Below, one piece after another: positions 6,506 through 42,842 of a stretch of 48,733 nucleotides of DNA. Under the pieces are notes generated by a model. The model was given only the letters and a program-made list of their open reading frames with translations, had not been told where the DNA came from and did no database searches. Numbering within the stretch: the first letter of the stretch is position 1; each line of letters starts with the position of its first letter. A program made the position numbers and the translations under genes. The stretch covers positions 1-48,733 of the forward strand of contig CALIIW010000150.1 in NCBI GenBank assembly GCA_938018185.1, given 5' to 3'. This DNA is from an uncultured Saprospiraceae bacterium (GTDB lineage: Bacteria; Bacteroidota; Bacteroidia; Chitinophagales; Saprospiraceae).

Positions 6506-6548
6506 ATTAAAATTACAACAAACCAAAAAGGATAAACAGAATAGTCAG

Positions 6549-7067: not shown

Positions 7068-7387
7068 TATGTTAGAGCCTGTTGGTTTTCATGCTTTTTT
7101 AAGGGTATTTAGAAGTAAGGCTAAAAAACGGCAGAGGCGTGATATTATTATAGCCCAGTGTGTAAACACTGGGTACAGGAAATGAGCTGAATTCATTTGG
7201 CGTGATTTTTTAAACGACTGACTGATTTTTTGCTTTAGCAAAAATGAAAGTCCGGTGGACTTTCAAAGGAGGGATCCCGCAGGGAGACAAATGGCTTTCG
7301 AGGATTATGCGGTTTTCCAGCCCTTTCCGCTAGAAACGAGGTATAGAATTTAAGTTACACAATTATCAGAAGTTGATTTTTAATGAT
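7068..7387. other. 320-bp gene-free region with hairpin cluster
   Basis: There is no credible gene here. The region lies between the ends of two convergent genes. It holds three perfect short palindromes (listed separately as 7154-7264) and, after them, a more GC-rich stretch around 7265-7340 (GGGATCCCGCAGGGAG) that looks different in composition from the AT-rich spacers nearby. It may be the remnant of a small non-autonomous element. Confidence 0.6.
7154..7264. repeat. cluster of three perfect inverted repeats (REP/MITE-like)
   Basis: Three hairpins are visible: CCCAGTGT-GTAA-ACACTGGG (7154-7173), TTTTTGC-TTTA-GCAAAAA (7227-7244) and GAAAGTCC-GGT-GGACTTTC (7246-7264). The middle one recurs in near-identical form, with a GAAA loop, downstream of the GH3 gene at 26665-26687. 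Short palindromes of this kind are typical of REP-like sequences moved by Y1 transposases, but no transposase is in the window. Confidence 0.6.
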
Positions 7388-7930
7388 TTAAGTTTTATCT
7401 GACAATCCCTTTTTTAGACTAAATATAATATTTTTTGGAAAGCCCTCATCTTTTCTATCTGGAAGTAAATTAAATCCTTGTTTTTTCAAAAGCTTTATGG
7501 AAGCTTTGTTTTCAAACTGCGTATATGCTTCAATGGTTTGTAATTGCAAATCCTTAAAACCATAATTCAAAACTGCTTTTAAGGCTTCTGTCATTATCCC
7601 TTTGGCTTGTGAATCTGTATGCAGGTCATAGCCAACTTCACCAGTTAATTTATCTTCAGAAAAATGCCATAAAGAAATGGAGCCCAACATCTTCGAAGGA
7701 GCAAGCTTATTTGCAATACACCAGTAAATGTTTTCATTGTTTTCAATACCAGTATTTACTTTTTTGATGAATGCAAGCGCATCTTCTAAAGTCTCTGCCG
7801 TTGGTCTTACAATAAATTTATTCACCTCCGGATCAGAACGTAAAAATTGAATCACAGCTGCATCACTTGGTATAAGCTGTCTAAGCACAAGTCTTTCTGT
7901 TTCTATTTCTGGAAAAGGTGTAAAATTCAT
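7388..7930 (-). CDS. GNAT family N-acetyltransferase (RimJ/RimL type)
   Basis: A 180-residue acetyltransferase. The opening 'ETERLVLRQLIPSDA' is characteristic of the RimJ/RimL subgroup. The acetyl-CoA binding motif A region reads 'GEVGYDLHTDSQAKGIMTEAL' (about residues 98-117), matching the Q-x-x-G-x-x-T-E-A pattern, and 'NKASIKLLKKQGF' (about 145-157) is the usual motif B end. Members acetylate the N-terminus of ribosomal proteins or small amines; the substrate here cannot be told. The gene appears to be transcribed alone. Confidence 0.88.
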   Translation of the reverse strand: MNFTPFPEIETERLVLRQLIPSDAAVIQFLRSDPEVNKFIVRPTAETLEDALAFIKKVNTGIENNENIYWCIANKLAPSKMLGSISLWHFSEDKLTGEVGYDLHTDSQAKGIMTEALKAVLNYGFKDLQLQTIEAYTQFENKASIKLLKKQGFNLLPDRKDEGFPKNIIFSLKKGLSDKT

Positions 7931-7986: not shown

Positions 7987-8463
7987 TCAATTTTGTTTGA
8001 CTAAGTGCGTGTTAAATCTATCGCAACAAGGAGAGATTAGATCTAGAGAATCACTCCTGAATTCAATATATTTTTCATTGTCTATTATCAACTGATAAGA
8101 GAATGGGTTTGGGTTAAAGTCTGCTTTAAAGAGCACAGCTATTATACCATCTGTTCTGGTGATCCTTTGGATTTTTCCACTTGCTAGCAATTCATTAGCT
8201 TTTTCTAATCCAAAAATTCCATTGGATTTTACCAATAAATGATCAAAGTCTTTCCCATATCCGGCCCCAGTTTCTCCGCCAGAACTACTTTCCACTCGCC
8301 ATATGCCTCGAATATCAGCTTCTTCTGAAAGATCATCAGTCGGATAATAATGGTCGAATGGAATGTGGTCTAATAGGCCAAGGAGTCCAATATCTGGTTC
8401 TTGTTTGCTACAAGAGAAATTCAAAAGTAAAAGGCAAAAGAAGATATAAAATTGAATTCGCAT
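7987..8463 (-). CDS. lipoprotein of unknown function, paralogue of 8636-9133
   Basis: A 158-residue protein with a lipoprotein signal peptide; the lipid cysteine is Cys18 (LNFSC). It is about two-thirds identical by eye to the next gene upstream. Shared blocks are 'YYPTDDLS', 'DFDHLLVK', 'NGIFGLEK', 'ASGKIQRI', 'DFNPNP' and 'CCDR.NTHL'. The paired cysteines near the C-terminus are conserved in both. I recognise no domain. It is a tandem duplicate with its own 5' region; the perfect hairpin at 8537-8587 separates the two genes, so they are probably separate transcripts. Confidence 0.75.
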   Translation of the reverse strand: MRIQFYIFFCLLLLNFSCSKQEPDIGLLGLLDHIPFDHYYPTDDLSEEADIRGIWRVESSSGGETGAGYGKDFDHLLVKSNGIFGLEKANELLASGKIQRITRTDGIIAVLFKADFNPNPFSYQLIIDNEKYIEFRSDSLDLISPCCDRFNTHLVKQN

Positions 8464-8536
8464 AAATATGGATTAAAGATTAAGTTTGAAGGGGCTTTAG
8501 TAGTGTAGACAGTGGATTGGGCACAAATGGTTGGCT

Positions 8537-8587
8537 TAAAACTTAAAAAGAGCTGCCCATTCTTTGGGCAGCTCTTTTTAAGTTTTA
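8537..8587. terminator. strong bidirectional intrinsic terminator
   Basis: A perfect 23-bp inverted repeat (8537-8559 and 8565-8587) with a 5-nt loop. The GC core AGAGCTGCCCA is flanked by A- and T-runs on both sides, so it would work on either strand. On the minus strand it ends the transcript of the lipoprotein gene at 8636-9133. Confidence 0.9.
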
Positions 8588-8635
8588 AGCTTTTAAGGAC
8601 AAAAGAATAATTTATGTAAATTGACTTCCGTGTAG

Positions 8636-9133
8636 TTAATCCATTTTGATCAAATGGGTGTTATACCGATCACAACAATCAGAACGCAGTTCTAAAGAAT
8701 CATTCCTCAATTCAATTAACTTTATATTATCTATAAGGAGTTGATAGCTTAAAGGATTAGGATTGAAGTCAGGTTCAAATTGAACATAAATGAAACCATC
8801 AGGTCTTGAAATTCTTTGAATTTTTCCACTAGCTACTAATTCATTGTCTTTTTCCAAGCCAAATATGCCATTTGGCTTAACTAATAAATGATCAAAGTCC
8901 TGTTCATATCCACCACCTGAAAACCCTCCGGAGGTTCTATCTACGCTCCAAATACCATTAATATCAACTTCGCTAGATAAATCATCTGTTGGATAATATT
9001 TATCTGCTGGGATATCATCTAATAGTGTTAATAAACCATTGTCCACTTGTCCGAGGCTAGCATCTTCATCATTGTTGCCACAGGCAAAGAATAACGCTAA
9101 TAAACTAAGGAATGCAATCGTTTTTATTTTCAT
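8636..9133 (-). CDS. lipoprotein of unknown function, paralogue of 7987-8463
   Basis: A 165-residue lipoprotein with lipid cysteine Cys18 (LFFAC), followed by an acidic stretch (GNNDEDAS) of the kind that directs Bacteroidota lipoproteins to the cell surface. The rest matches the neighbouring paralogue almost end to end, including 'YYPTDDLSSEVDINGIW', 'GGYEQDFDHLLVKPNGIF' and the C-terminal 'CCDRYNTHL'. The downstream copy lacks as clear an acidic signal (SKQEPD), so the two copies may sit on different faces of the outer membrane (inference). No known domain. Confidence 0.78.
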   Translation of the reverse strand: MKIKTIAFLSLLALFFACGNNDEDASLGQVDNGLLTLLDDIPADKYYPTDDLSSEVDINGIWSVDRTSGGFSGGGYEQDFDHLLVKPNGIFGLEKDNELVASGKIQRISRPDGFIYVQFEPDFNPNPLSYQLLIDNIKLIELRNDSLELRSDCCDRYNTHLIKMD

Positions 9134-9302: not shown

Positions 9303-10058
9303 CTAATAATCATTTATTGTCAATGGAAGCAGCTTTAATGTACCTCTAACTTCATCCTGTAATTGAATAAAATATAAACCTGCTGGCATATTTGAAATAT
9401 TATATTGTCCATCCATGCTGTAAGAATAATTTATTATTTCTTGACCGAGGATATTTCTTAAGGAGATTGAAGAAAAGACTTCGGTTGTAGTTAAATTAAA
9501 GTAATCCTTAGTAGGATTCGGAAATACTTTTATGGGGGCGAGTTCCGCAGCATTTTCAGTATTTAGAGGAGGTATCTCATTTTCGCAATTTTCATCCATG
9601 TTTACATTTGCGTTTATTACAGTTGTAGCTAGAATATTATCTGGATCGTCTGCTAAAGAAAAATGCATTTTGATTTCGCAACATGCTGCATTTGATCTTG
9701 GGTATATTTCTACTTGAAAGAAATCATAGGTTTCTAAGGAATCTAAATACATAGGTTGGTTTACATCTGGATCCAACTGGATATTTGAAGAAACCGCGGG
9801 AAAATAATGAATATTATTATCGCCTATAGGAATGTCCCAGCTATCACAAGCTTCATCTACTACTCTCAACCATTTTATACCAATTGTGTCTGCAGTTAAA
9901 TTTGCAACTTTAATCTTTAATCTTACTACTTCAGAATTATTTTCAAGATCTAGGTCTAGAAAAACAGTGTCAATTGCTGCGGGAGTCACTGAGATGATTT
10001 GACTTTTAGAGGTAAAAAAGGACAGAATTAGAAAGCTTATAAGGATCGTTTTTTTCAC
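9303..10058 (-). CDS. T9SS-exported protein, triplet member A
   Basis: A 251-residue secreted protein with signal peptide (MKKTILISFLILSFFTSKSQ), a central beta-rich domain of about 140 residues that I do not recognise, and a C-terminal T9SS type A sorting domain starting at 'IKVFPNPTKDYF'. It is the third and most downstream of three tandem paralogues. The central domain conserves 'IYPRSNAACCEIK' and 'DDPDNIL'. It has lost cysteines kept by the other two: 'CDSWDIPIGDNNIHY' against 'CDGWETAICDNNKCY'. A 95-bp stretch (9511-9605) is almost identical to the next copy. Confidence 0.82.
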   Translation of the reverse strand: MKKTILISFLILSFFTSKSQIISVTPAAIDTVFLDLDLENNSEVVRLKIKVANLTADTIGIKWLRVVDEACDSWDIPIGDNNIHYFPAVSSNIQLDPDVNQPMYLDSLETYDFFQVEIYPRSNAACCEIKMHFSLADDPDNILATTVINANVNMDENCENEIPPLNTENAAELAPIKVFPNPTKDYFNLTTTEVFSSISLRNILGQEIINYSYSMDGQYNISNMPAGLYFIQLQDEVRGTLKLLPLTINDY

Positions 10059-10144
10059 AATAGAATTTTTAATAAGGTGATAGCAAGTTTGAAGTGTATG
10101 TTTCCGATACTTTAGGACAGGTAGGAAACAAGCTTGTTGTTCGA

Positions 10145-10897
10145 CTAATTAGCGCATATAGCTAATTGAAGCATTTTCAAAGTATTTGCATCCTTATCTA
10201 ACAATTGAATAAAGTACAGACCAGCCTCCATTTTTGAGATATCATATTGTTCGTCTATGTCGTAATTATACAGCATCACTTCTTGTCCCAAAGCATTTCT
10301 TAATAAGATGGTAGACGCATCTTTAATAGCTGATAACGTAAAGTAGTCACTCGTAGGATTCGGAAATACTTTTATGGCGGCGAGTTCCGCAGCATTTTTA
10401 GTATTTAGAGGAGGTATCTCATTTTCGCAATTTTCATCCATGTTTACGTTTGCATTTACTGTCAAAGTACCCAGAATATTGTCTGGATCATCAACCAAAG
10501 AATAATGGACTTTAATTTCACAACAGCCTGCATTTGTTCGAGGATAGATATGCACGGCACATTCAGGGCAGCTTTCGCCTGCCTCTAAGTACATAGGTTC
10601 ATTTAAATCTGGAAGTGTAATGTTTGATGAAATAAAGGTGGCATAGCATTTATTATTATCACAAATAGCAGTCTCCCATCCATCACATTCTCCTTTAACC
10701 TCACGAACCCATTTTAAAGCAATCTTATCATCTGTGATATTGGTAACGTCGACTTTTATTTCTAAATCAAGATAAGAAATGGAAAGGTCTTGGTCTTGAA
10801 ATATAGTATCTGTCACTAAGGGATTTATTTCAATAACCTGGGCTATGGAGGTGAAATAAGCAAGAATGATAAAAGAAAAGAGTATGGTTTTTTTCAT
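10145..10897 (-). CDS. T9SS-exported protein, triplet member B
   Basis: A 250-residue paralogue of the flanking genes, with signal peptide (MKKTILFSFIILAYFTSIAQ), central domain and T9SS sorting domain (IKVFPNPTSDYF). It has extra cysteines: the 'CDGWETAICDNNKCY' cluster and a second 'ESCPECAVHIYPR' cluster just before the conserved 'NAGCCEIK'. These would allow disulphides or metal binding. Linker and sorting-domain DNA is nearly identical to copy A over 95 bp while the N-terminal halves have diverged. The 86-bp gap to copy A holds no clear promoter or terminator, so A and B may be one transcript. Confidence 0.82.
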   Translation of the reverse strand: MKKTILFSFIILAYFTSIAQVIEINPLVTDTIFQDQDLSISYLDLEIKVDVTNITDDKIALKWVREVKGECDGWETAICDNNKCYATFISSNITLPDLNEPMYLEAGESCPECAVHIYPRTNAGCCEIKVHYSLVDDPDNILGTLTVNANVNMDENCENEIPPLNTKNAAELAAIKVFPNPTSDYFTLSAIKDASTILLRNALGQEVMLYNYDIDEQYDISKMEAGLYFIQLLDKDANTLKMLQLAICAN

Positions 10898-11012
10898 ATT
10901 GATATATTTATTTTGTCAAGGAGGTTACTAAAAATAATAAAAATATTCGAGAGTAATTAAGAAGATTTGTAAATAGAATTTATCACTAAATAATATTTGT
11001 TTGATGCCAAGC

Positions 11013-11053
11013 AAAAAAAAGAGCTGCACTCAGAAAGTGCAGCTCTTTTTTTT
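11013..11053. terminator. intrinsic terminator after triplet member C
   Basis: A perfect 18-bp inverted repeat, A8-GAGCTGCACT and AGTGCAGCTC-T8, with a 5-nt loop CAGAA. It is bidirectional in form. It separates the first gene of the triplet (11074-11823, minus strand) from the second. Confidence 0.9.
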
Positions 11054-11073
11054 ACTAGTAACTATGCGTTAGT

Positions 11074-11823
11074 CTAGTTTGCATTAATTGTTAATGGCAT
11101 AAGCTTTAAAGTAGCACCTGACTCATCTTGCAATTGAATGTAGTAAAAACCAGCTGACATATTTGAAACATCATATTGTCCACCTTCATTATAAGAATAA
11201 TTCATCAATTCTTGGCCTAAGGTATTTCTTAATATGATTGTAGAAACAGCTTGCGTGCTTGTCAATTTGAAATATTCATTCGTTGGATTAGGAAAGATTT
11301 TGATTGCATCAATTTCTGTAGCATCTTCGATAGATGAAAGAATTTCATTTTCACAATTTTCGTCCATATTAACATTTCCATTTACAGTGGCAGTAGCCAA
11401 GATATTATCTGGATCATCAACAAGGGAAAAATGTAATTTGATTTGGCAACATCCTGCGTTTGTTCGAGGGTATATATGAACCGCCATTTCATCAAAAGAT
11501 TCTTGAGCCTTCAAATACATTGGCTCATTTAAATCTGGAAGCATAATGTTTGAAGATATGGTTTGAAAGTAACAAGTGTTATTGTCACAGATAGCTGTTT
11601 CCCAACCTGCACAATCGCCTTCCACTTCACGGAGCCATTTGATGGCAATTTTATCATCAGTTAAGTTAGCTACACCCATTTTTACTACTAAATCAAGATA
11701 ATTTATCGATAAATCTTGATCTTGAAAAGAAACATCAGAAACCTCTGGAGTTAGACCAATAATTTGTGCTTTTGTAGCAAAAAAAGCGAAGCACAAAAAG
11801 CTTAAAAGTATAAATTTTCTCAT
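11074..11823 (-). CDS. T9SS-exported protein, triplet member C
   Basis: A 249-residue paralogue with signal peptide (MRKFILLSFLCFAFFATKAQ), the unrecognised central domain and a T9SS sorting domain (IKIFPNPTNEYF). It keeps the 'CAGWETAICDNNTCY' cysteine cluster and 'YPRTNAGCCQIK'. Its linker (NEILSSIEDATEIDA) differs from the near-identical linkers of copies A and B. It has its own terminator at 11013-11053 and lies 179 bp downstream of the sensor-regulator gene on the same strand. Its function is unknown; surface attachment or release through T9SS is expected. Confidence 0.82.
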   Translation of the reverse strand: MRKFILLSFLCFAFFATKAQIIGLTPEVSDVSFQDQDLSINYLDLVVKMGVANLTDDKIAIKWLREVEGDCAGWETAICDNNTCYFQTISSNIMLPDLNEPMYLKAQESFDEMAVHIYPRTNAGCCQIKLHFSLVDDPDNILATATVNGNVNMDENCENEILSSIEDATEIDAIKIFPNPTNEYFKLTSTQAVSTIILRNTLGQELMNYSYNEGGQYDVSNMSAGFYYIQLQDESGATLKLMPLTINAN

Positions 11824-29687: not shown

Positions 29688-30203
29688 TTTTATGAATTTT
29701 TAGTTTAATGTTTTAAAATTTATCTGTCTCAAATAATACCTTTTCAGGATTTATATCTTTGGGACATATTATATACAACCTTACTGTATCAATGTGCGTA
29801 CCATCCTATATTTTGTGCCAAATTGTAATTTTTAACTCTTATTTTAGACCTTTTTGATGACATTATAGGACTTTTGTGTCATTTTGGCAGACATTTTGGC
29901 AGGTATAAAAAAGAGGAATAAAATATGGAGCCTATATATCTAATAAGCCAAAAAATTTAAGACAGCCTATGAGATATTTGTAAAAATGTATTGAAATTGT
30001 TTTATGCGGTTATTTGTTGATGTGTTTAAGATAATCTTAGAAAATTTGTAAACAAATACACGAATAAACAATAAGCAATTTATATTAAACACATTTGAAT
30101 GTATTACTCTCATAATTTATATTTGGTGTACTAGGTATATAGTTCCCTAAAATATTTAAATTCGCCTCATCTAATTGATAAAAAAACCTAAGTAAACCTT
30201 AAT
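29688..30203. other. 516-bp gene-free region between divergent dnaK and a lipoprotein gene
   Basis: No credible gene or RNA is seen. It is strongly AT-rich and should hold the promoters of dnaK (leftward) and of the lipoprotein gene at 30204 (rightward). The only clear structure is the directly repeated ATTTTGGCAG near 29881-29902, listed separately. I found no exact TAnnTTTG promoter for dnaK; TATTATTTG in the minus-strand leader at about 29732-29740 is one base too long. Confidence 0.6.
29876..29903. promoter_or_regulatory. direct repeat ATTTTGGCAG upstream of dnaK, possible stress operator
   Basis: ATTTTGGCAG occurs at 29881-29890 and again at 29893-29902, preceded by GTGTC, so the first copy reads TGTCATTTTGGCAG, an imperfect dyad. 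It lies about 190 bp upstream of the dnaK start. The two copies are 12 bp apart, close to one helical turn. Binding by a heat-shock regulator or alternative sigma factor is a guess from position. Confidence 0.4.
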
Positions 30204-32278: not shown

Positions 32279-34768
32279 TCACGAAATTACAATCTCCTTA
32301 AATAAGTTATTCGTACTAATCCTAACAATTCCATCTGTCCTAGTAAAAGGTACACTCTTACCATCAATACTTATTTTAATCATCTTTTCAGGTACACCGT
32401 AGAGCTGATAAAAATAATTTTTATAAGGCATTTTGTACAGACCAAAAGATTTGGAAGTTCCTACAATTTTCTTTTTTGTAGCATTAAATTCAAATTGAAT
32501 TTCTTTGTATTCATCTGCTAAATAGTCGTAGCCTTCTCCCTTGTCTTCATAGTACCAACTATCGAAATTTCCTTCATCAAGGAAAATTCTAAACTGCAAT
32601 TGGTTAACTTTTTCCTTGGTGTGTTGTCTAACTGGATGCATTGGGATGACAGCGCCAGCTCTTGCAAATACTGGAATTCGATCTGGAGTTAAAGAAACTT
32701 TGTGTGTATCTCCACCGATATATTTTTCACCAGTTTTAAAATCAAACCAAGTTCCTTTTGGGAAATAAATTTTTTGAGATTTTGCTTTAGCCCTAGTTAC
32801 TGCGGAGATAAACAAATGCTCGCCAAATAAAAATTCTCTTTCTGTGTTGTACAGTTTTTTGTCCGTTTGGTCTTCAAATATCAAACTTCTAACCATCGGT
32901 TTTCCTTCAACCACATAGTCGTTGAAAGTAGAATATATATAAGGCAGTAATTTGTATCTAAATTCAATTGCCTTTCTCGTAAGAACAGTTGTCTCCTCTC
33001 CAAATGCCCACGGCTCTTGGTCTAGTCTTTCCACTTCTTTTAATTCTTCCGGATTGTCATCAATCCCAGCAGAACCATCTTCTCGATTTCCAATAGAGTG
33101 CACCCTGAAGAAAGGATGGAAGACAGCTAACTGCAGCCATCTGCACATTAATTCTGGCGTCGGTTGATTAACAAAGCCACCAATGTCTGAACCTACAAAA
33201 GAAAAACCCGATACACTCATTCTTTGAGTTTGAGTATTTGCTAGTTGCAATTGTTCCCAAGAAGCGATGTTATCACCAGTCCAAACGGAAGCATATCTTT
33301 GGCCACCAGAATAAGTCGCACGAGTTAATACAAATGGTCTTTTATTTTTTCGCAACTTTTTTAAACCTTTAAAGGTCGCTCGACTCATTTGCATGCCATA
33401 AATATTATGAGCCCTTCTGTGGTTTGTAGGGTTCCCTTCCATATGGTGCATGACCTCATCAGGGAATGTTTTCGAATTGACTTTAAAGACAGCAGGCTCA
33501 TTCATGTCATTCCAGAAACCAGAGACATCCTGATCATTGTAAAGCTCCTTGTATAAATTTCCCCACCATTTACGGACGGCCTTATTTGTAAAATCTGGGA
33601 AAACACAGTTCTCTGGCCAAACAGGTCCAACCATGAGATTTCCATCTGTTCTTTTACAGAAATATCCATTTTTTATTCCTTCTTGATAGACAGAATAATT
33701 TTCATCTTCTTTAATCCCTGGATCTATCATCACAACTGTGTCAAAACCTTTTTCTTTGATCTTTGCAATGACCTTTTTTAGATTTGGAAATAGTTTTTTG
33801 CTCCAGGTAAAACACCTAAAGCCATCCATATAATCTATGTCTAAATAAATGGAATCGCAAGGAATTTTCTTGTCTCTGAACTTTTTAGCTAAATTTAGAA
33901 CCCGTTTTTCTGGGTAGTAGGACCAACGACATTGATGATAGCCAAGACCCCACATTGGAGGTAGTTCTGGTGTGCCAGTCAGCAGGGTGTATCTTTGAGC
34001 CACATCGTTTAAATCAGGACCAAGAATGAAATAGTAGTTTAATTCACCACCTTCAGCTCCAAAAGATAATTCATTTTTATTTTTGCTATCAAAATCGAAA
34101 AAACTTCTGTGACTATTATCAAAGAATACTCCATAAGCAATATCATTTTTTAGACCGTAGAAAAAGGGTATGGTCTTATATAAAGGGTCGGTCTTAGGAC
34201 CATACGCAAATGCATCTGTATTCCAGTTCTCAAACTTTTTCTTCCTTAAATTAAGCGCACTACTTTTATCACCAAGACCATAGAAGTTTTCCGTTTTCGT
34301 AATACTTTTTTGGAGGGACACATGCGTGTCACCTTTAAGAATAGTAGATCGGTGAACAAAGCCACGCTTGTCCTGAGATAAAAGTTTCCCTTCAGTGTTA
34401 TAGATACTTACCTTAAGGTTTTTCTTAGTTACTAATAGTCTAGCCGTTGGGCTGACAATTTCAATAGCATTTTTTAATTCTGTAATTTTTAGACCAACAT
34501 TTACCTTTTTGTAATGCTTTGAAATGGCATAACTGGTATGTTTTTCAAATGCTTTTAGAGCATATCTAATCCTAATGATGTTTTCATCTATGAATTGAAT
34601 TTTTAGAAGCACATTGTTCTCAGATTTAATGAGAACTGCGTTTTTTTTCAAGATATGTGATTCCCATTTGCCTGGAGTAGTTTCTGAATAGACATCATCG
34701 TAACGATCATGATTTTCCGTGTCTTTTATATTCACGAATGAAGGAGCTTCTTGCTTTCTTTTTTTCAT
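32279..34768 (-). CDS. GH31 alpha-glucosidase
   Basis: An 829-residue glycoside hydrolase family 31 enzyme. An N-terminal beta domain leads to the barrel with 'MWGLGYHQCRWSYYPEKRV'. The nucleophile is Asp421 in 'GFWNDMNEP' and the acid/base is Asp499 in 'VWTGDNIASWEQL'. 'GGFVNQPTPELMCRWLQLAVFHPFFRVHS' is also diagnostic. A C-terminal DUF5110-type domain ('EDKGEGYDYLADEY') completes it. No signal peptide is seen (MKKRKQEAPSF), so it is probably cytoplasmic, releasing glucose from alpha-1,4 or 1,6 glucans or maltodextrins. It is convergent with the GH13-like gene, 76 bp apart, which suggests a related alpha-glucan role. Confidence 0.95.
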   Translation of the reverse strand: MKKRKQEAPSFVNIKDTENHDRYDDVYSETTPGKWESHILKKNAVLIKSENNVLLKIQFIDENIIRIRYALKAFEKHTSYAISKHYKKVNVGLKITELKNAIEIVSPTARLLVTKKNLKVSIYNTEGKLLSQDKRGFVHRSTILKGDTHVSLQKSITKTENFYGLGDKSSALNLRKKKFENWNTDAFAYGPKTDPLYKTIPFFYGLKNDIAYGVFFDNSHRSFFDFDSKNKNELSFGAEGGELNYYFILGPDLNDVAQRYTLLTGTPELPPMWGLGYHQCRWSYYPEKRVLNLAKKFRDKKIPCDSIYLDIDYMDGFRCFTWSKKLFPNLKKVIAKIKEKGFDTVVMIDPGIKEDENYSVYQEGIKNGYFCKRTDGNLMVGPVWPENCVFPDFTNKAVRKWWGNLYKELYNDQDVSGFWNDMNEPAVFKVNSKTFPDEVMHHMEGNPTNHRRAHNIYGMQMSRATFKGLKKLRKNKRPFVLTRATYSGGQRYASVWTGDNIASWEQLQLANTQTQRMSVSGFSFVGSDIGGFVNQPTPELMCRWLQLAVFHPFFRVHSIGNREDGSAGIDDNPEELKEVERLDQEPWAFGEETTVLTRKAIEFRYKLLPYIYSTFNDYVVEGKPMVRSLIFEDQTDKKLYNTEREFLFGEHLFISAVTRAKAKSQKIYFPKGTWFDFKTGEKYIGGDTHKVSLTPDRIPVFARAGAVIPMHPVRQHTKEKVNQLQFRIFLDEGNFDSWYYEDKGEGYDYLADEYKEIQFEFNATKKKIVGTSKSFGLYKMPYKNYFYQLYGVPEKMIKISIDGKSVPFTRTDGIVRISTNNLFKEIVIS

Positions 34769-35089
34769 AAAATTGGTACTGAAGTAAATATTAACCTTTA
34801 TACAGTTAATATACGCGCTAATGGTGGCTTTGTTTGTATTATTTAAAACTCGGTTTCAAGATATTAAATAATAGATATATGCCTCTATTATTTTAATTAA
34901 AAAAGCTTGATACTCAATTATTTGTCAAAAATTATGGGTGGATTTAATAAATAATAAGCTTTAAAGTATTTTTAGCAATTGAGTGTATAAATACTTATCC
35001 ACCAATCATTTAGCACAGTTTAATCTCTTAGAAATTGGTTTTAATTTAAATTTCAATAAATTTGATACAGAATTCAATTTACATTTTAC
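34769..35089. other. 321-bp AT-rich divergent promoter region
   Basis: No gene is seen between the GH31 start and the OmpA-family start. The right end holds a consensus Bacteroidota promoter (35035-35064). For GH31 I see no exact consensus in the minus-strand leader. Confidence 0.6.
35035..35064 (+). promoter_or_regulatory. Bacteroidota-type promoter for the OmpA-family gene
   Basis: TTG (35035-35037), a 19-bp spacer, then TAAATTTG (35057-35064), matching the -33 TTG / -7 TAnnTTTG consensus of the Bacteroidota primary sigma factor. The start site would be near 35071, about 19 bases before the ATG. Confidence 0.7.
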
Positions 35090-36013
35090 ATGAAACGAAA
35101 TATACTTATACCCTTCATTGTCATTGCTTTGCTCGGATTTTTGGTTTTTGGAGCCAGGTATGTCGGAAATTATATGTGTGGCGTACCAACAGTAGGGACT
35201 GCAATCACTGGGGCTGCAACAAGTAGTATCATACCAACTAAGGTCAAAAAAGGGCTTTGGTATGTTGCGGATAATACCGCTTTTCAAGGTTCTGCTAACA
35301 GCCATTTTAGTTTTATAAATTCAAGCTTTGATTACACCAAGCCAGTCAATACGGAGGTAGCACAATTGTGTGATAAAACATCGACATACTTGAAGAATAA
35401 CCCTGACCGTAATTTGAATATTATTGGTTATTATTCAGAAGATGAAAACGATGAAAGTATTTTTCCAAATTTAGGATTAGCAAGAGCAAACACTGTAAAG
35501 GAATACATGGCTTCGCTTGGTCTTTCAAAAAATAGAATCAATACTTCTGCAGAAATTGTAGGCCCTGATCGTTTTAATATTAACAAGTTGGAAAAAGGTA
35601 TTGAATTCACCTTCGCTGCAGCTTCAACTAAGACGGCAAATACTCGAATTGATGATATTAAAAATAGACTCTTAGGGGAGCCATTGATTTTGTATTTTGG
35701 AACTGGGGAAAATTACTTACGTCTAAACGACGAACAAAAGAATAATATTTCAGACCTTATATATTACCTAGACAATGTTTCAGAAAGTAGCTTAGAGATA
35801 AATGGTCATACGGACAAAAAAGGTAAAGCTGCAAAAAATATTATCTTATCAAAAGAACGTGCTCAATACGTCAAGAACTATCTATTTAAGAACGGAGGAA
35901 TTACAATGAATAGAATGAATACAAATGGCTTTGGTGAAGATCAACCATTGGTTAAAAATAATTCTTCTGCCAATAGAGCTAAGAATAGAAGGGTAGAGGT
36001 GATTTTGAAATAA
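35090..36013 (+). CDS. OmpA-family protein with two OmpA-like domains
   Basis: A 307-residue protein with a single N-terminal membrane helix (about residues 5-24), followed by two peptidoglycan-binding OmpA-type regions. The first, about residues 65-155, is degenerate ('NLNIIGYYSEDEND...LGLARANTVKEYMASLGL'). The second, about 195-307, is canonical, with 'LEINGHTDKKGKAAKNIILSKERAQYVKNYL' and the closing 'NRAKNRRVEVILK'. It should sit in the periplasm, anchored by the helix, and bind the cell wall. It has its own consensus promoter and a small membrane-protein gene 5 bp downstream. Confidence 0.88.
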   Translation: MKRNILIPFIVIALLGFLVFGARYVGNYMCGVPTVGTAITGAATSSIIPTKVKKGLWYVADNTAFQGSANSHFSFINSSFDYTKPVNTEVAQLCDKTSTYLKNNPDRNLNIIGYYSEDENDESIFPNLGLARANTVKEYMASLGLSKNRINTSAEIVGPDRFNINKLEKGIEFTFAAASTKTANTRIDDIKNRLLGEPLILYFGTGENYLRLNDEQKNNISDLIYYLDNVSESSLEINGHTDKKGKAAKNIILSKERAQYVKNYLFKNGGITMNRMNTNGFGEDQPLVKNNSSANRAKNRRVEVILK

Positions 36014-36018
36014 CATTT

Positions 36019-36339
36019 GTGATAAATATTTTTATAAAGGAAGGTTTTATAATCACCTTATTAAGCTTCACCTCAATTATTGCACTTGCACTAAAGGGCC
36101 ACTACCACATAAAGGCCCACGCCCTTTTGATAAAAAGAAATTATCGTGGCTACATTATTGAAATGATCTTTTATGAAGATTGGAGAGAAAAATTCATTCT
36201 TTCTTTGCCCATTCCTTTTATTAATATTCTGGGCAAAAAAATTAATCATCAAATTGTAAAACTTATAAGGATTGGGAATTATTTGCTTGCTTTCTTTTAT
36301 GTTCTATTTTTATGCCTGCTTTATTTTTTACTAAAATAG
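36019..36339 (+). CDS. possible small membrane protein, GTG start
   Basis: A 106-residue reading frame opening with GTG 5 bp after the OmpA-family stop, so translational coupling is plausible. It has hydrophobic segments at about residues 8-26 and 85-105, with a basic middle ('HYHIKAHALLIKRNYRGY') and 'WREKFILSLPIPFI'. I recognise no family. The amino-acid make-up looks like a real membrane protein, but the next in-frame ATG is only at residue 49, so the gene is uncertain. Confidence 0.45.
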   Translation: MINIFIKEGFIITLLSFTSIIALALKGHYHIKAHALLIKRNYRGYIIEMIFYEDWREKFILSLPIPFINILGKKINHQIVKLIRIGNYLLAFFYVLFLCLLYFLLK

Positions 36340-36370
36340 CCATTGCTTATTCACCTTGCCTTTTGTCCAG

Positions 36371-36478
36371 ATCACGCGGAACTCGCTTAAGTTTCCAAAC
36401 TTGGGCTAGACCTTTCAACCTCAGGTAAAATTAAAATACTTGTAAGAAATAAAAGACTGTAATAGAATTTATCTTTTC
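36371..36478 (+). repeat. intergenic palindromic repeat, copy A
   Basis: It contains ACTCGCTTAAGTTTCCAAAC at 36381-36400, running on into TTGGGCTAGACCTT, whose core AAGTTT-CC-AAACTT is a palindrome. A stretch about 40 bp later (36451-36478, AAAAGACTGTAATAGAATTT) resembles the left arm of the terminator in copies B and C, but its right arm is decayed. It is the most diverged full-length copy. Confidence 0.65.
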
Positions 36479-36571
36479 TAGGCTTTTGGTTTAACACTTG
36501 TTAAATAATTGATTAGAAAGACCATCTTCGTATAATACTAGTTTAAATGTAAACCAACATGATTAACAAAT

Positions 36572-37198
36572 ATGAAGTACCTAGTTTACAGTTTATTTAT
36601 CATCCCTTTCTTTTTTAGTTGCAATGACGACGATCAATCGGGTTCATCAATCCCAGACCCTATCATAGAGGAGCCTATATTGTTTCCTTTAGCCTTAGGC
36701 AATTATTGGGTTTATGAAGTTGCTAAAGTAGATGCTCTTGGAAATGAAGAACTACTTCCTTACAATGATACCATCCGAATTGTTGGAGCTAGCTTTATCA
36801 ACGACGAGACATATTACACAATAGAAGACAACAACTTTGGTTTTGGCAAAGTAATGAGACATGTGAGAGATTCCTCTGGTTTTTTAATTAATTCAAGGGG
36901 TAATATTTTACTTTCTACATTGGACTTTGATCAAGTAATATATACTTATGAAGCTGGGCCTGTCAGAATTGAGTACACCATGCAAAGTGAGGTTCAAAAT
37001 GTAAATGTACCGTTTGGTGCATTTGATTGCTTGAATTTTGAGGGTATTCTTTCGGATGTTAATGATGAAGAAAACACCCCTAGAACACTATTCAATTTAT
37101 ATAGCGATGAAGTTGGGCTTGTTGCAAGCAATATTTTCTTTTTCTCTAATCGAGAATCTACCTGGGAAAGAAGATTGATAGATTTTAAACTTGAGTAG
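36572..37198 (+). CDS. surface lipoprotein of unknown function
   Basis: A 208-residue lipoprotein with lipid cysteine Cys17 (FFFSC) followed at once by NDDDQSG, a clear surface-export type signal. The body starts 'FPLALGNYWVYEVAKVDALG', the opening seen in many small Bacteroidota beta-sandwich lipoproteins, and ends 'WERRLIDFKLE'. I recognise no enzymatic motif. It lies alone between two copies (A and B) of the palindromic repeat and shares the terminator at 37321-37357 with the convergent neighbour. Confidence 0.78.
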   Translation: MKYLVYSLFIIPFFFSCNDDDQSGSSIPDPIIEEPILFPLALGNYWVYEVAKVDALGNEELLPYNDTIRIVGASFINDETYYTIEDNNFGFGKVMRHVRDSSGFLINSRGNILLSTLDFDQVIYTYEAGPVRIEYTMQSEVQNVNVPFGAFDCLNFEGILSDVNDEENTPRTLFNLYSDEVGLVASNIFFFSNRESTWERRLIDFKLE

Positions 37199-37236
37199 GT
37201 TTTATTAGAAAATGAAAGAGCTTGAGATGGAGTCGA

Positions 37237-37357
37237 TTTCCCAATTGCTTAAGTTTCCAAATCTGAGCTAGACCTTAATCATGTAGGACGAAATTAAAAC
37301 ATTCCACAGAAGGGCTAAAAAAAAGAATGCAATAGAATTAATCTATTGCATTCTTTT
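37237..37357 (+). repeat. intergenic palindromic repeat, copy B
   Basis: It contains GCTTAAGTTTCCAAATCTGA, running on into GCTAGACCTTAAT, then a 45-bp spacer and the hairpin at 37321-37357. It shares order, spacing and orientation with copy C. Confidence 0.75.
37321..37357. terminator. bidirectional terminator within repeat copy B
   Basis: AAAAGAATGCAATAG pairs perfectly with CTATTGCATTCTTTT around a 7-nt loop (15-bp stem). It lies between two convergent lipoprotein genes and would end both. Its stem is the same as that of the terminator at 38479-38517. Confidence 0.88.
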
Positions 37358-37374
37358 ATCAAATTAAATTAAAA

Positions 37375-38268
37375 TTATTTACTCACTGTTCCAGTAGGGT
37401 TTGTAGCAACAGCATTATTACTCATATCTAGCGCAGTATGTATTTGTACATTCGCTGGAACTTGACCAACAAGTGGCTTAAGTACAAAAGGAGCTGGAGA
37501 ATTATCCGGGACCGGCTCTACTGAGATTACAACTGTTCTTGAAGAAAGACTTAGTGGAAAAGTAATTCCATCAGGAGCATTATTTAAAAAATCTTCACCC
37601 GGAAATGGAGGCCCTGCCACTGTACCGTTATAGATACCAGAATTATCTGAACCTGAAACTGAGGTGAACGTACCTGTACTCAATGGCGTACCATCAACAA
37701 CAGCCCATCCTTCGTATGCCCAGCCGGCTGGCAATGTCGGTAAATCCAAACCTGCTTCAGCAGAACCAGAAGAGTTGTCCAAAAACCATACACCGCTTAA
37801 TTCATTCATATCAGCATTTCCATCAGTAGCAGTTGCTATAATATATTTCCCCGTAGCTGATTCAAAATTAGTACCTAATGCCGCAGGATCACTAACAGAC
37901 AAAGTAGCTGCATCTCCGCTAAAATCACCAGCTAATACTTTTACAGCACTTGGTGCAGGATCGGTATCAGGAATAGGTTCTACACTTATTACAAACTTCG
38001 TAGCAGCTGCAGCATCTTCTTCAGAAACCTGGAAAGCATTATCTGAAGTATTGCCATCAGCATCAACTGTAAAAGTACCTGTAGAAACAGGTGCCCCATC
38101 TACTATGATCCACCCTTCATATTGAAACGCTGCTCCTAGATCTTCTAGGCCACTTATCTCCATATTCAATTGCTGGGTGCCGGCCATTGCCGTTTCGTCA
38201 TCTGAACAAGAAGCAAATCCAATAATTGTTGCCATTCCTAGACATTTCAAAACATTCTTTAAAACCAT
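37375..38268 (-). CDS. lipoprotein with two RskA-like (anti-sigma-K C-terminal) domains
   Basis: A protein of 297 residues when started at the ATG complementary to 38266-38268, chosen because it gives a proper lipoprotein signal ending at Cys21 (FASC) followed by the acidic SDDE. An ATG 25 codons upstream would bury it. Two similar domains follow. Each has 'YEGWIIVDGAPVSTGTF' or 'YEGWAVVDGTPLSTGTF', then 'FVISVEPIPDTDPAPSAVKVLAG' type or 'VVISVEPVPDNSPAPFVLKPLVG' type endings. That pattern (YxxW, G-F, ExP, P-K-L-G) is the extracytoplasmic beta-sandwich of RskA-type anti-sigma factors. There is no membrane helix or sigma-binding domain, so this is not a classical anti-sigma factor. Function unknown; surface location is likely. 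Confidence 0.75.
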   Translation of the reverse strand: MVLKNVLKCLGMATIIGFASCSDDETAMAGTQQLNMEISGLEDLGAAFQYEGWIIVDGAPVSTGTFTVDADGNTSDNAFQVSEEDAAAATKFVISVEPIPDTDPAPSAVKVLAGDFSGDAATLSVSDPAALGTNFESATGKYIIATATDGNADMNELSGVWFLDNSSGSAEAGLDLPTLPAGWAYEGWAVVDGTPLSTGTFTSVSGSDNSGIYNGTVAGPPFPGEDFLNNAPDGITFPLSLSSRTVVISVEPVPDNSPAPFVLKPLVGQVPANVQIHTALDMSNNAVATNPTGTVSK

Positions 38269-38395
38269 CTTATATTTTTTATTTGATTGAGCAATATACT
38301 CACACCCTATACTGTCAACTCCTTGCAGATGGTTGCCTTGCAAATAGTAAAAAATAGGTCTTTAAAACGACAATACAAACAGTTAAGAATTTAAA

Positions 38396-38517
38396 CCGAA
38401 TCGAACCGCTCGCTTAAGTTTCCACACTTGAGCTAGACCTTTCTGCGTCTAGATAAAAATTCCTAATAATGGTTAATAAAAAAGAATGCAATAGGACTTA
38501 CCTATTGCATTCTTTTT
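38396..38517 (+). repeat. intergenic palindromic repeat, copy C
   Basis: It reads CGAATCGAACCGCTCGCTTA, then AGTTTCCACACTTGAGCTAG and ACCTT, a spacer of about 34 bp, and the hairpin at 38479-38517. It matches copy B in order and orientation, and the partial copy D follows 11 bp later. Confidence 0.75.
38479..38517 (-). terminator. terminator of the hybrid kinase gene, within repeat copy C
   Basis: AAAAAGAATGCAATAGG pairs with CCTATTGCATTCTTTTT around ACTTA (17-bp perfect stem). It is placed downstream of the minus-strand hybrid kinase gene. Its core is identical to the 37321-37357 terminator. Confidence 0.88.
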
Positions 38518-38528
38518 CAAGTCTACTC

Positions 38529-38578
38529 CCGAATTTAACCGCTCGCCTAAGTCCTCAAACTTGAGCTAAACCTTGATC
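38529..38578 (+). repeat. intergenic palindromic repeat, partial copy D
   Basis: CCGAATTTAACCGCTCGCCT followed by AAGTCCTCAAACTTGAGCTA and AACCTTGATCT: the left part of the repeat without its terminator half, ending 1-2 bp before the kinase stop codon. Confidence 0.65.
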
Positions 38579-38579
38579 T

Positions 38580-40700
38580 TTATTTTTCGGTTTGCTGCAA
38601 ATGAGCATATAATCTTCCTGTCTCCGTCTTAATCAAATCAATCTGCTCATTCATTTTAGTGCCAACTATTTTGAAGAGGGCAACAAAGGAATCTTGTTCA
38701 TTTGCTTTAGCCATTTTTTCTAAAATTTCAAATTGTTTACTTAAATTGTCGAGACCAACCATGGTGAATATTGGCTTCATCTTATGACTCAGTTTTCCAC
38801 ATGTTTCCATGTCATTTTTTTCAGCTGCTTCTACAAGAGACTGGTAGTCAGTGTTTACAACTTCCAAAAACGTTTCAAACATATCAACAGCATGGTCTAA
38901 GTCATCCCCATAAGCTTCCTTCAAGAAGACCTCATTCAAACTTGTATCAAATCTAAACTCACCTGTAATTTCAACTGTTTTTTCGTCTTGATGTGCGCTA
39001 GGTTTAAGATATGTACGTAGCATTTCTGCCAATTGAAAGGGATTAAATGGCTTGGCAAGGAAGTCATTCATTCCTAATTCAAAAGCCTTGTTTTTCATTG
39101 AAATCATGGAAGATGCTGTCAAGGCTATTATAGGTGTATCTAGATTTGGGCTACATTCCTTTTTGATCGTGCTGGTTGCTTCATAGCCATCCATAACAGG
39201 CATTTGAATATCCATGAAAATAAGACTATACTTTTTAAGGCTACATTTTTCAACAGCTTCTAGACCATTTACCGCAATTTCAAAATCCAGAGACCATTTG
39301 TTTAATAGTCGTTTTATGTATTTTCTATTCATTACATTATCTTCAACAACGAGAATTGGGTGATCAGCTTTTAAAAATTGCTCAGATGTAATCATAACTT
39401 TATTTGATTTATTTAAGGTCTTATTAGTGTTGGTTAAATTTATTTCAAAGAAGAAAGTTGTTCCTTCGTTTAATTTACTTTGAACTTTTAGTTCACCTCC
39501 TAGTATTTCTAAAATTTTTCTAGTAATTGCTAAGCCTAGTCCTGTTCCTCCGTATGAATATTTTCGTTCTTCACTAACTTGTACAAATTGTTGAAAAATT
39601 TTCACCTGATCTTTTTCTGAAATTCCAATACCACTGTCTGAAATTTCAAATCTTATTTTGTAGTTGGATTCTGTTTTTTCTAATACTTTTAATGCGAGCT
39701 TAATTACTCCTTCATCAGTAAATTTTTCTGCATTTCCAATAAGGTTGAAAAATATTTGATTCAATAATAACTCATCTGCCATTACTAAACTATTCAATTC
39801 GGAATCGATTTCACAGATAAATTCTATGGGCTTATTCTCGAGTTTTAATGAAAATGTCTTACGCAAATTGTCAAGAAGCATAACAAGATTTACTTCCTTT
39901 TCGTGCACCTCAATATTGCCAGAATCAATTTTAGAAAAATCTAAAATGTCAGAAATTAGGGAATGAAGAATATTAGCAGAAGTGGATAAAATGTCAATAT
40001 ATTCTTCCTGCTCCTTAGACATTTGGGTGTCTTGAATTAAGTGAGACATTCCAATTATTGCATTAAGTGGTGTTCTAATTTCATGACTCATATTTGTCAA
40101 GAATTGTTTTTCTGCTTTTTGAGAAGCTTCAGCAAATGCTTTTGCTTCTTCAAGCTCTAGCTGCATTTGTTTGGGCTTAGTAATGTCTCTTGCAACTGCA
40201 GCAAATTTTACTAAGTGCCCATTTTCTCTTATACCAGTTACGCTTTGGCCAACCCACTTGACCTTTCCTTCTTTGGTCATAACTCTAAATTCAAAATAAG
40301 ATTGATCTACTTCATTTTGAATCATCTCTTTATAAAACTGCTTAGTAGCTTTGAAATCTTCAGGATGCACAAATTCGCTATAGTGTTTGCCAGAAAGATC
40401 TTCAAAAGAATATCCAAATTTCTCAGGCCCTTTATGATTCATAAAGATAAAGTTGCCATTAAAATCGGCATAGTAAATGAATTCTTCTATCGATTTAGCA
40501 AGATCAACATATTGCTTTGCATCGGCACTTTTTTTACATTCTGGAATATCTATTGGTCTTGATTGGAATTTATTTTCTAAAAGGAGCAATTCTGATTCTG
40601 CTCTTTCTAGTTTTATACTAGTAAGCTCTAATTGATGTTCTGCCGTTTTACGAGCTTGTCGTTCTTTTTCTAATTGAAACTTGTAATCCTCTGTGACCAT
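38580..40700 (-). CDS. cytoplasmic hybrid sensor histidine kinase: PAS-HisKA-HATPase-REC-Hpt
   Basis: A 706-residue protein. It starts with a coiled coil (about residues 5-50) and a PAS domain with PAC (about 65-180, 'YADFNGNFIFMNHKGPEKFGY'). HisKA carries the phospho-acceptor His206 in 'NMSHEIRTPLNAIIG'. The HATPase has 'NLIGNAEKFTDEG', 'DSGIGISEKDQ' and 'YGGTGLGLAI'. A receiver domain carries Asp497 in 'FMDIQMPVMDGYEAT', and a C-terminal Hpt domain carries His639 in 'GKLSHKMKPIF'. No membrane helix is visible, so it should sense an intracellular signal. The phosphate would pass His-Asp-His to a response regulator encoded elsewhere. It is apparently monocistronic, with a candidate promoter at 40770-40803. 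Confidence 0.95.
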   Translation of the reverse strand: MVTEDYKFQLEKERQARKTAEHQLELTSIKLERAESELLLLENKFQSRPIDIPECKKSADAKQYVDLAKSIEEFIYYADFNGNFIFMNHKGPEKFGYSFEDLSGKHYSEFVHPEDFKATKQFYKEMIQNEVDQSYFEFRVMTKEGKVKWVGQSVTGIRENGHLVKFAAVARDITKPKQMQLELEEAKAFAEASQKAEKQFLTNMSHEIRTPLNAIIGMSHLIQDTQMSKEQEEYIDILSTSANILHSLISDILDFSKIDSGNIEVHEKEVNLVMLLDNLRKTFSLKLENKPIEFICEIDSELNSLVMADELLLNQIFFNLIGNAEKFTDEGVIKLALKVLEKTESNYKIRFEISDSGIGISEKDQVKIFQQFVQVSEERKYSYGGTGLGLAITRKILEILGGELKVQSKLNEGTTFFFEINLTNTNKTLNKSNKVMITSEQFLKADHPILVVEDNVMNRKYIKRLLNKWSLDFEIAVNGLEAVEKCSLKKYSLIFMDIQMPVMDGYEATSTIKKECSPNLDTPIIALTASSMISMKNKAFELGMNDFLAKPFNPFQLAEMLRTYLKPSAHQDEKTVEITGEFRFDTSLNEVFLKEAYGDDLDHAVDMFETFLEVVNTDYQSLVEAAEKNDMETCGKLSHKMKPIFTMVGLDNLSKQFEILEKMAKANEQDSFVALFKIVGTKMNEQIDLIKTETGRLYAHLQQTEK

Positions 40701-41030
40701 ATTATTTGCCTAATTGGTAGTTTTAAATTAGTATTTATTTCCAGTTAATAACTATTGCAATTCTTCTTCCAAAATTATAGTTGATACAGAAATCTGTGAC
40801 AAAGCTTTATCCTTAGATATAATTTAAGGACATATTTCCTTTCTGAGGTTATGAAGTTGAATTTGGCAATTGGTTTTTTAGATGACTGACGAAATAGATG
40901 GCGGAAGCGTAATTTTAATGGCAGATGGGTGTTGCAAAAATTTGTATGTACTGGGATTGATTCTTAGGATTTTCGGATTCTTCATAGTGGTCAATAGTTT
41001 GTTCAATCTGTCAATTAACCACAACTCACC
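40701..41030. other. 330-bp gene-free region upstream of the hybrid kinase
   Basis: The left part holds a candidate kinase promoter. The right part is the downstream side of the UbiD-family gene. A rightward reading frame beginning at 40882 runs 172 bp antisense into that gene and is not accepted. I see no terminator hairpin for the decarboxylase gene. Confidence 0.55.
40770..40803 (-). promoter_or_regulatory. candidate promoter of the hybrid kinase
   Basis: On the minus strand TTTG (complement of 40800-40803), a 22-bp spacer, then TAATTTTG (complement of 40770-40777). The -7 element is exact and the spacer is slightly long for the Bacteroidota consensus. The predicted start is near 40763, leaving a leader of about 60 bases. 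Confidence 0.45.
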
Positions 41031-42842
41031 TTATCTCATCCCATACAAGGAGCCACTCTTTGCAAAAAAACGGTCTACCTTTTTCTCAACAGCTTTATCC
41101 GTTATAAGTGGAGGTGCATGGTGCTGCTTTATTCTAGCATCTATTATTATCGCATCCTTACAGCCCCAATGTTTGTTTTCCGTTGTTGCATGTAAACCAT
41201 AGACATCATGAGAAGGATTGGATCGAGTGAATGTTATCCAAACAAAGTTGTTTGTGTTTGCTGACAAAAATTCAGAGTCATCACATAGGATGATAAGCGG
41301 AATTTCTTTAAAATTGCTTTGTTCTAAAGCATAGAGGAGTTGAGTTATTGAAGTAGAGGCTTCACCTTGGATAGCCAAAATTCCTTTTTGAAAAAACTTT
41401 GGCTTTGAAAAACCAGCGGGCAGGTTTAAGTTGTCAGGAAGTTTGTTTGAGAGTTTTCTGACAGCCTTCCCTCGAGCAGCTATAATAACTTTCGAACCAG
41501 CATTCCAACCTGAACCAGAATAATCCAAAGTATCAATTGTCGTTTTCGTTTGAAAATGTAGATCCCTTTGCCAGTCAACCCTTTCTAAGAGGTGGTTGAA
41601 AAATGCAGGAATGTTCTTGCAAGTTAAATTTGGCGCATCAGCTTTGTTGCTAATGAATAAATATTTTGCCAAGGAGGTTTGCCCAGAGCCTAAGATTCTT
41701 GTAGCTTGCGTAATTATTTCTTCTGGCACTTCCTCTCTAAAAGGCATATATCGCTCTGATCCGATCGCTAGAAGTAGTGGGTGAACGCCAGCTGCATCGA
41801 CTGCGTGAATCTCATGAATCCCTGGAAACTCTCCAGCAGTCAAAGGCACAACCAATTGGTGAATCAAATAACCAAAACTTGAATCCTCTTGAGGCGGCCT
41901 TCCTACAACTGTAAAATGCCATAAAGGATCTTTTCTATGATACACTTTATGAACATCCATCACTGGAAACTCGTGCGCTAAACTGTAATACCCTAAGTGA
42001 TCACCAAAAGGGCCTTCTAATTTTTTTTCATTTTTTCGAATGAATCCAGTGATACAAAAATCTGCATCATTTGAGATAACATGTGGGCCATCAAAGGAGT
42101 ACCTAAATCTTCTGCCAGCCAACATACCAGCAAAAGTCAATTCTGATAATCCTTCGGGCATAGGCATGATGGCTGAGAAAGCATTAGAAGGATTTCCGCC
42201 AATAAAAATAGAAACAGGAAAAGCATCTTCAATTTCATTGTATGCCGTATGGTGGATACCAATTCCTCTGTGCAATTGGTAATGCATACCTATTTCTTCA
42301 TTAAGCTTATAATCATTGCCAGAAAGCTGGATTCGATACATACCTAAATTTGACTCCATAATATTTCTAGAGCCTGGAGGTAAGGTGAGTACCTGCGGCA
42401 GCGTAACAAAGCCACCTCCATCCATTGGCCAAGATTTTAGTTGAGGAAGTTTGTCAATGCTTGTCTCTCCATATTTGACAGGGATAGAGAAATTTGATTT
42501 TTTTGGTAAAGCTTGCAGTGCTGTAAAAGGAGCAGATAGAAAGGCAGAAGGTTTTTTGAGAAAGGCTGTTGGATCAGCTTTCAATTGAATCACCTTCTTT
42601 ATTTTTGGGATGGTCTTCCTGAAAATATATTCTGTTCGCTCTATCGTACCATATATATTGCTGATGGCTTGAAATGGACTGTCTTTTACTTTTTCAAATA
42701 ATAGAGCAGGTCCTGCTGCATCGTAGACCCTTCTATGTATTTCAGCCATTTCTAAGTTAGCATCTACTTCTTCTTTGACTCGAACCAGCTTTCCGGCTTT
42801 CTCCAAGTCATTTGCGCAATCACGTAAACTTTTATATGGCAT
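41031..42842 (-). CDS. UbiD-family decarboxylase (menaquinone-type, about 600 residues)
   Basis: A 603-residue member of the UbiD family of prenylated-FMN-dependent decarboxylases. It opens 'YKSLRDCANDLEKAGKLVRVKEEVD', typical for the family, with 'FIGGNPSNAFSAIMPMPEGLSE' in the flavin region. The acidic active-site loop is 'LEGPFGDHLGYYS' (Glu276), followed by 'GRPPQEDSSFGYLIHQL'. It is longer than E. coli UbiD (about 500 residues). That length fits the group annotated as menaquinone biosynthesis decarboxylases, which act on a prenylated naphthoate. No ubiX or mqn gene is in the window, so the exact substrate is not settled. It is divergent from thyA, 148 bp apart. Confidence 0.88.
   Translation of the reverse strand: MPYKSLRDCANDLEKAGKLVRVKEEVDANLEMAEIHRRVYDAAGPALLFEKVKDSPFQAISNIYGTIERTEYIFRKTIPKIKKVIQLKADPTAFLKKPSAFLSAPFTALQALPKKSNFSIPVKYGETSIDKLPQLKSWPMDGGGFVTLPQVLTLPPGSRNIMESNLGMYRIQLSGNDYKLNEEIGMHYQLHRGIGIHHTAYNEIEDAFPVSIFIGGNPSNAFSAIMPMPEGLSELTFAGMLAGRRFRYSFDGPHVISNDADFCITGFIRKNEKKLEGPFGDHLGYYSLAHEFPVMDVHKVYHRKDPLWHFTVVGRPPQEDSSFGYLIHQLVVPLTAGEFPGIHEIHAVDAAGVHPLLLAIGSERYMPFREEVPEEIITQATRILGSGQTSLAKYLFISNKADAPNLTCKNIPAFFNHLLERVDWQRDLHFQTKTTIDTLDYSGSGWNAGSKVIIAARGKAVRKLSNKLPDNLNLPAGFSKPKFFQKGILAIQGEASTSITQLLYALEQSNFKEIPLIILCDDSEFLSANTNNFVWITFTRSNPSHDVYGLHATTENKHWGCKDAIIIDARIKQHHAPPLITDKAVEKKVDRFFAKSGSLYGMR

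Follow-up and report, generated by a model that had tools for sequence, protein, structure and literature searches.

REP sequences are described as intergenic palindromes of 20 to 40 bp that are present in high copy number and that, in most families, carry a GTAG or CGTC tag at one end (excerpts of PMC3733652; the definitions are also drawn from excerpts of PMC12306157). MITEs and intergenic repeats break the assemblies of Porphyromonas gingivalis, another member of the Bacteroidota, according to excerpts of PMC5771137, and for integrons we use the terms given in excerpts of PMC9024848. The window analyzed here, the whole stretch of 48,733 nucleotides from an uncultured Saprospiraceae bacterium, contains a set of repeats for which an earlier note had offered two readings, a small element that spreads and the duplication of a terminator unit. 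That note had described four same-orientation copies of a palindromic repeat, and all four are present on the + strand where it had placed them. We conclude that the four repeats are probably local copies of a gene-end unit, consisting of a palindrome and a bidirectional intrinsic terminator, and not a mobile element; of the earlier proposals, duplication of a terminator unit is the best reading left. The features of the locus, by position in the window, are these:

36014 to 38579, no strand: stretch absent from congener G001 between the OmpA and kinase genes, where 16 bp lie between the stop codons (L027)
36019 to 36339, + strand: ORF106, a reading frame with no Pfam match and with a match in 0 of 59 other genomes
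36384 to 36414, + strand: core copy A, a 31-bp palindromic block
36449 to 36487, no strand: hairpin T_A of copy A, decayed, the counterpart of T_B by sequence
36572 to 37198, + strand: ORF208, lipoprotein-like, between A and B; no Pfam match; relatives in 8 of 59 other genomes
37246 to 37276, + strand: core copy B, 31 bp
37319 to 37357, no strand: hairpin T_B, a putative two-way intrinsic terminator flanked by convergent genes
37375 to 38268, − strand: RskA_C-domain gene (PF10099, E 1.2e-12), between B and C; relatives in 5 of 29 other genomes
38411 to 38441, + strand: core copy C, 31 bp
38478 to 38516, no strand: hairpin T_C, a putative terminator for the kinase gene
38544 to 38574, + strand: core copy D, 31 bp, no hairpin, at a distance of 5 bp from the stop codon of the kinase gene

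The 31-bp palindromic core occurs four times within 2.2 kb, always on the + strand, and a repeat scan of the window places the copies in one family. Copies A and C agree at 29 of 31 positions, A and B as well as B and C at 27, A and D as well as C and D at 25, and B and D at 23 (z 7.5 to 16.9 against shuffled letters); the next-best core-like places in the window reach 20/31 (+ strand, 14440) and 22/31 (− strand, 2926). The core is made up of a 22-bp palindrome, for which a stem of nine pairs is possible, and a short tail. Two blocks had been described as common to all copies. The 20-bp block is recognizable in all four but exact in A only (one mismatch in C, three in B, and four in D), and the second block varies, reading GGCTAGACCTT in A and AGCTAAACCTT in D. 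A search of the window with the 20-mer at up to three mismatches found A, B, and C only, because D carries four mismatches to this block; the same search gave no match in 100 shuffled windows. That the copies occupy only intergenic spots is true for 4/4, with intergenic sequence making up 719 of the 2566 bases of 36014–38579; the naive chance of this outcome (0.006) assumes independent copies, which duplicates are not. The RskA-like gene said to be flanked by two copies is the RskA_C gene, with B and C on its two sides.

On the + strand, the unit is ordered core, linker, and hairpin, and its length is ∼105 to 112 bp. The linker from core to hairpin measures 34 bp in A, 42 bp in B, and 36 bp in C. 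Similarity is high in the core and hairpin and close to random in the linker and in most of the outer flank: The linkers are much less alike than the cores (z 3.3 for A–B and B–C, 0.7 for A–C), and the sequence preceding the core differs in most pairs, the exceptions being C–D (20/26, z 4.3) and, weakly, B–D (z 2.3). Copies C and D start 133 bp apart, roughly the length of one unit and a short spacer.

T_B and T_C are near-identical hairpins of 16 pairs, with an A tract before and a T tract after. Folding gave −19.0 (+ strand) and −19.7 (− strand) kcal/mol for T_B and −20.7 (+ strand) and −21.0 (− strand) kcal/mol for T_C, and none of 200 shuffles was as good in either case. T_A is no more stable than its shuffles (−4.0 kcal/mol, z −0.4), although 13 of the 16 pairs of T_B are still able to form in it. 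A stable hairpin followed by a T run is present on both strands for T_B and T_C and is not present for T_A. Over 39 bases, the hairpins of B and C match at 35, those of A and B at 30, and those of A and C at 28. These values bear out the earlier description of nearly the same hairpin 35 to 45 bp after the block in B and C (42 and 36 bp after the core), of a decayed hairpin in A, and of its absence from D, for which no counterpart is found in the sequence. Among the three hairpins, 2 of 16 stem pairs are changed on both sides, a number that 54 of 500 shuffles reach; the two compensating pairs may be a weak sign of a kept stem and are suggestive only.

The positions of the two stable hairpins fit a role in termination. 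T_B is located 120 bp behind ORF208 (+ strand) and 17 bp behind the RskA_C gene (− strand), which form a convergent pair, and T_C is located 63 bp behind the kinase gene (− strand), with core D in between. From structure and position, we predict that T_B and T_C should act as two-way terminators. Neither was among the listings of a simple terminator scan; one possible reason is that base pairing with the A tracts makes the T tracts count as stem. For the relatives' RskA_C genes, a terminal hairpin is present in all five loci read by eye, with a T run in four, and the hairpin sequences are unrelated, indicating that a terminator is usual at this position and that its sequence is not conserved.

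We searched for the repeat beyond the window. The genome from which the window comes is a draft (5,055,429 bases, 345 contigs, 92% complete), from which further copies could be missing. In it, the core pattern with up to three mismatches matched exactly the four copies, and in five congeners (62–91% complete) it had no match. A sequence model of the unit, for which 150 of 3970 first-look candidates in this genome were scored, recovered the four copies with E values from 4e-28 to 7e-11, followed by two matches to these hairpins in antisense orientation (E 0.002 and 0.008) and then by a place on another contig (E 0.1). With stricter filters and 11 candidates scored per genome, the model found nothing in 297 other family genomes. 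A pattern with two mismatches, which itself finds A, B, and C and not D, gave no match in 59 other relatives, a set that overlaps with the 297. Exact pattern scans of the GTDB species genomes and of IMG/VR viral contigs, collections that may leave out the genome studied here, were empty; no match was found in plasmid records with copy A (36364–36500) as the only query or in phage records with C and D (38391–38600) as the only query. Among open-licence papers, we recognized no description of this repeat.

In congener G001, the order GH31, OmpA, kinase is kept, with the OmpA and kinase genes end to end and no core. Because G001 is without the stretch, these ∼2.5 kb, with three genes and four copies, were gained here or lost there; the single comparator genome would fit both. 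Among GTDB loci anchored on GH31, OmpA was found at E 1e-10 in none of the best 80 of at least 586, many of these loci being incomplete, and one locus from a MAG (L106) carries both UbiD and GH31, separated by other genes. The neighboring GH31 protein has its best named matches in uncultured Saprospiraceae, at 60% identity. Kinase relatives (∼40–45% identity) occur in 41 of 298 family genomes, the present one included, and six stretches around such relatives (L096–L101) have no OmpA match at E 1e-5. In nine stretches around relatives of ORF208 or RskA_C (L087–L095), only the queried gene was found; the two never occurred together, and neither OmpA nor the kinase was present. At the locus itself, no kinship is recognizable among the genes that separate the copies (local scores 28–35, obtained without a control).

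To place the locus within its genome, we surveyed the intergenic pieces of 46 stretches of the same genome (G000; 826,202 bases, ∼6300 of them entering the count twice; mechanical gene calls). This gave 47 local repeat pairs (25 bp or longer, less than 5 kb apart), located in 16 of the 46 stretches, the window included, which contributed six. Seven of these stretches were inspected more closely. In one of the seven (L198; contig C141, 3945–6126), a hairpin with a T run is located behind each of three tandem paralogues of 40 to 49% protein identity, and these hairpins (at 4552, 5299, and 6080) are 79 to 85% alike and well kept. Terminators repeated behind paralogues in this way indicate that local copying of gene ends is not peculiar to the locus studied here.

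The same genome holds dispersed intergenic repeats. One, of ∼230 to 300 bp, is located at 7097–7400 of the window; 8 of 45 other stretches match most of it (L050, L191, L194, L201, L209, L221, L223, and L228), seven of the eight in two pieces without the middle, with shorter pieces elsewhere, and the ∼70-bp middle is itself present twice in L217. This repeat looks more mobile- or REP-type than the four-copy unit does. A second dispersed intergenic family is located at 29905–30160 of the window, between the DnaK gene and the next, with relatives at 74 to 83% identity in L199, L208, L220, and L203. Elsewhere in the genome (L218 1945–4520, contig C35), an array of ∼80- to 140-bp repeats with an inner palindrome lies on both sides of a gene. 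Tandem paralogous gene runs at 5987–7067, 7987–9133 (a pair judged by eye), and 9303–11823 of the window are further local duplication.

Several observations argue for local duplication of a gene-end unit: The core is found at four same-strand places only, T_B and T_C are located where terminators are needed, and C and D are alike before the core and one unit apart. Observed directly are the sequence, the number of copies, their restriction to this locus within the material searched, the folding, and the contrast with one congener; termination in the cell, the order of duplication and insertion, and the cause of the better preservation of the core are inferred. The unit would have multiplied within the 2.5-kb stretch, most simply as a tandem array, and genes would have been inserted into or between units or rearranged there. 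T_B would serve as the end of ORF208 on one side and of the RskA_C gene on the other, T_C would terminate the kinase gene, A would be a unit with a decayed hairpin, and D would be a core alone. Plain duplication of a gene with its terminator does not explain the layout, because the intervening genes are not recognizably related and one is reversed. Of a local segmental duplication, the earlier note had expected a core found only here and a similarity that fades gradually into the flanks. The genome search agrees with the first part but not with the second, as the similarity does not fade gradually and the linker and most of the outer flank are near random beside a conserved core and hairpin. 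A near-random linker next to a kept core would be unexpected from plain decay of a duplication, and either selection (for a role in DNA or RNA) or exchange between copies may be the reason that the core outlasted the linker.

The contrast between core and linker also bears on a different account, in which the core is a functional site under selection, either a protein-binding palindrome or a structured RNA, and its pairing with a terminator is incidental. This account, which we consider unlikely, is consistent with a core kept at 23 to 29 of 31 positions beside a near-random linker, with its persistence in A and D despite a decayed or absent hairpin, and with the folding of the A and C cores, the two that were folded alone, each of which forms a stem at −9.1 kcal/mol that beats nearly all shuffles. 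However, none of the nine core pairs shows compensating changes over the four copies, and 500 of 500 shuffles were at least as good, giving no sign of selection on an RNA stem. The core also has no common position relative to genes, A and C being upstream of a gene start and B and D not; a Bacteroidota-type promoter consensus has two matches in 34700–41100 and none at any copy, and Rfam 15 gave no match in the window at the gathering score. More doubtful still is a small MITE- or REP-like mobile element that was inserted repeatedly at one place or is starting to spread. The copies are palindromic, intergenic, and several in number, their cores have sharp edges, and other, dispersed intergenic families exist in the same genome. 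The one feature around a unit that is readable as a trace of insertion is a 9-bp direct repeat, AACCGCTCG, that brackets unit C, but this repeat belongs to the block before the core that C and D have in common, and the direct repeats around units A and B are 4 bp only and chance-like. Shared terminal inverted repeats were not found at the unit ends, the best 12-base comparisons reaching 7/12 in A, 9/12 in B, and 6/12 in C at differing offsets, without a control. With four copies only, in one orientation and at one 2.2-kb locus, and with nothing in the 297 other family genomes, the GTDB genomes, or the viral contigs, the suggestion of a small, spreading element is not supported: In its own draft genome, the core is confined to this locus, and no relative or collection that was searched contains it.

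The cores could also be recombination sites with the segments between them being captured gene cassettes, as in an integron or another site-specific array, which we regard as very improbable. Every segment does lie between direct copies of a palindrome; one congener lacks the stretch, and there the two genes that have known relatives are located away from this locus. The C–D interval would correspond to a cassette without a gene. The box motifs of attC sites are RYYYAAC and GTTRRRY. In the four copies, boxes of this type have no shared offset, the unit folds as separate hairpins and not as one long imperfect palindrome, and the hairpin is common to the units where a cassette would have one particular to each segment. 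A search of the draft genome (92% complete) with the integron integrase model TIGR02249 gave seven matches, none of which reached the 265-bit cut-off (118.5 for the best single piece), and 14 of 14 control genomes also have matches below the cut-off. On two of three contigs retrieved for these sub-cut-off matches, C189 and C249, the frames were judged by eye to be other tyrosine recombinases. We assign an equally small chance to a bolder proposal: The 22-bp palindrome might be the site of exchange in an undescribed form of gene capture, by which genes are added one at a time, with a two-way terminator built in, at a single place in the chromosome. This would amount to a miniature cassette array outside integrons.

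On the preferred reading, local copying of a gene-end unit, the finding is mostly ordinary: In this genome, the signals at gene ends can undergo local copying around genes that were gained. Such copies can mimic a mobile element to a reader of one window by itself. Should the better conservation of the core be due to a function, the palindrome may help to insulate or insert genes.

Compared with known systems, the locus shares features with several. Like REP sequences, the copies are short intergenic palindromes near gene ends, and the 22-bp palindrome fits the range of 20 to 40 bp; in contrast to them, there are four copies at one locus instead of a high copy number, and the GTAG or CGTC tag is absent at the core ends (by eye). 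MITEs differ in their terminal inverted repeats and dispersed copies, which were not found here. A CALIN, a cluster of attC sites without an integrase, likewise has direct repeats between unrelated genes; here, however, attC boxes are at no shared offset, the hairpins are separate, and no integrase is over the cut-off. At the tandem paralogues of L198, as at this locus, copies of a hairpin with its T run follow successive genes, all in the same orientation, but there the genes are paralogues, whereas here they are unlike, one is reversed, and an extra palindromic core stands beside the hairpin. With a bidirectional intrinsic (Rho-independent) terminator, T_B and T_C share the strong stem, the A tract before and the T tract after, and, in the case of T_B, the location between convergent genes, and they differ from it in that the predicted terminators are repeated and accompanied by a conserved core 36 to 42 bp away.
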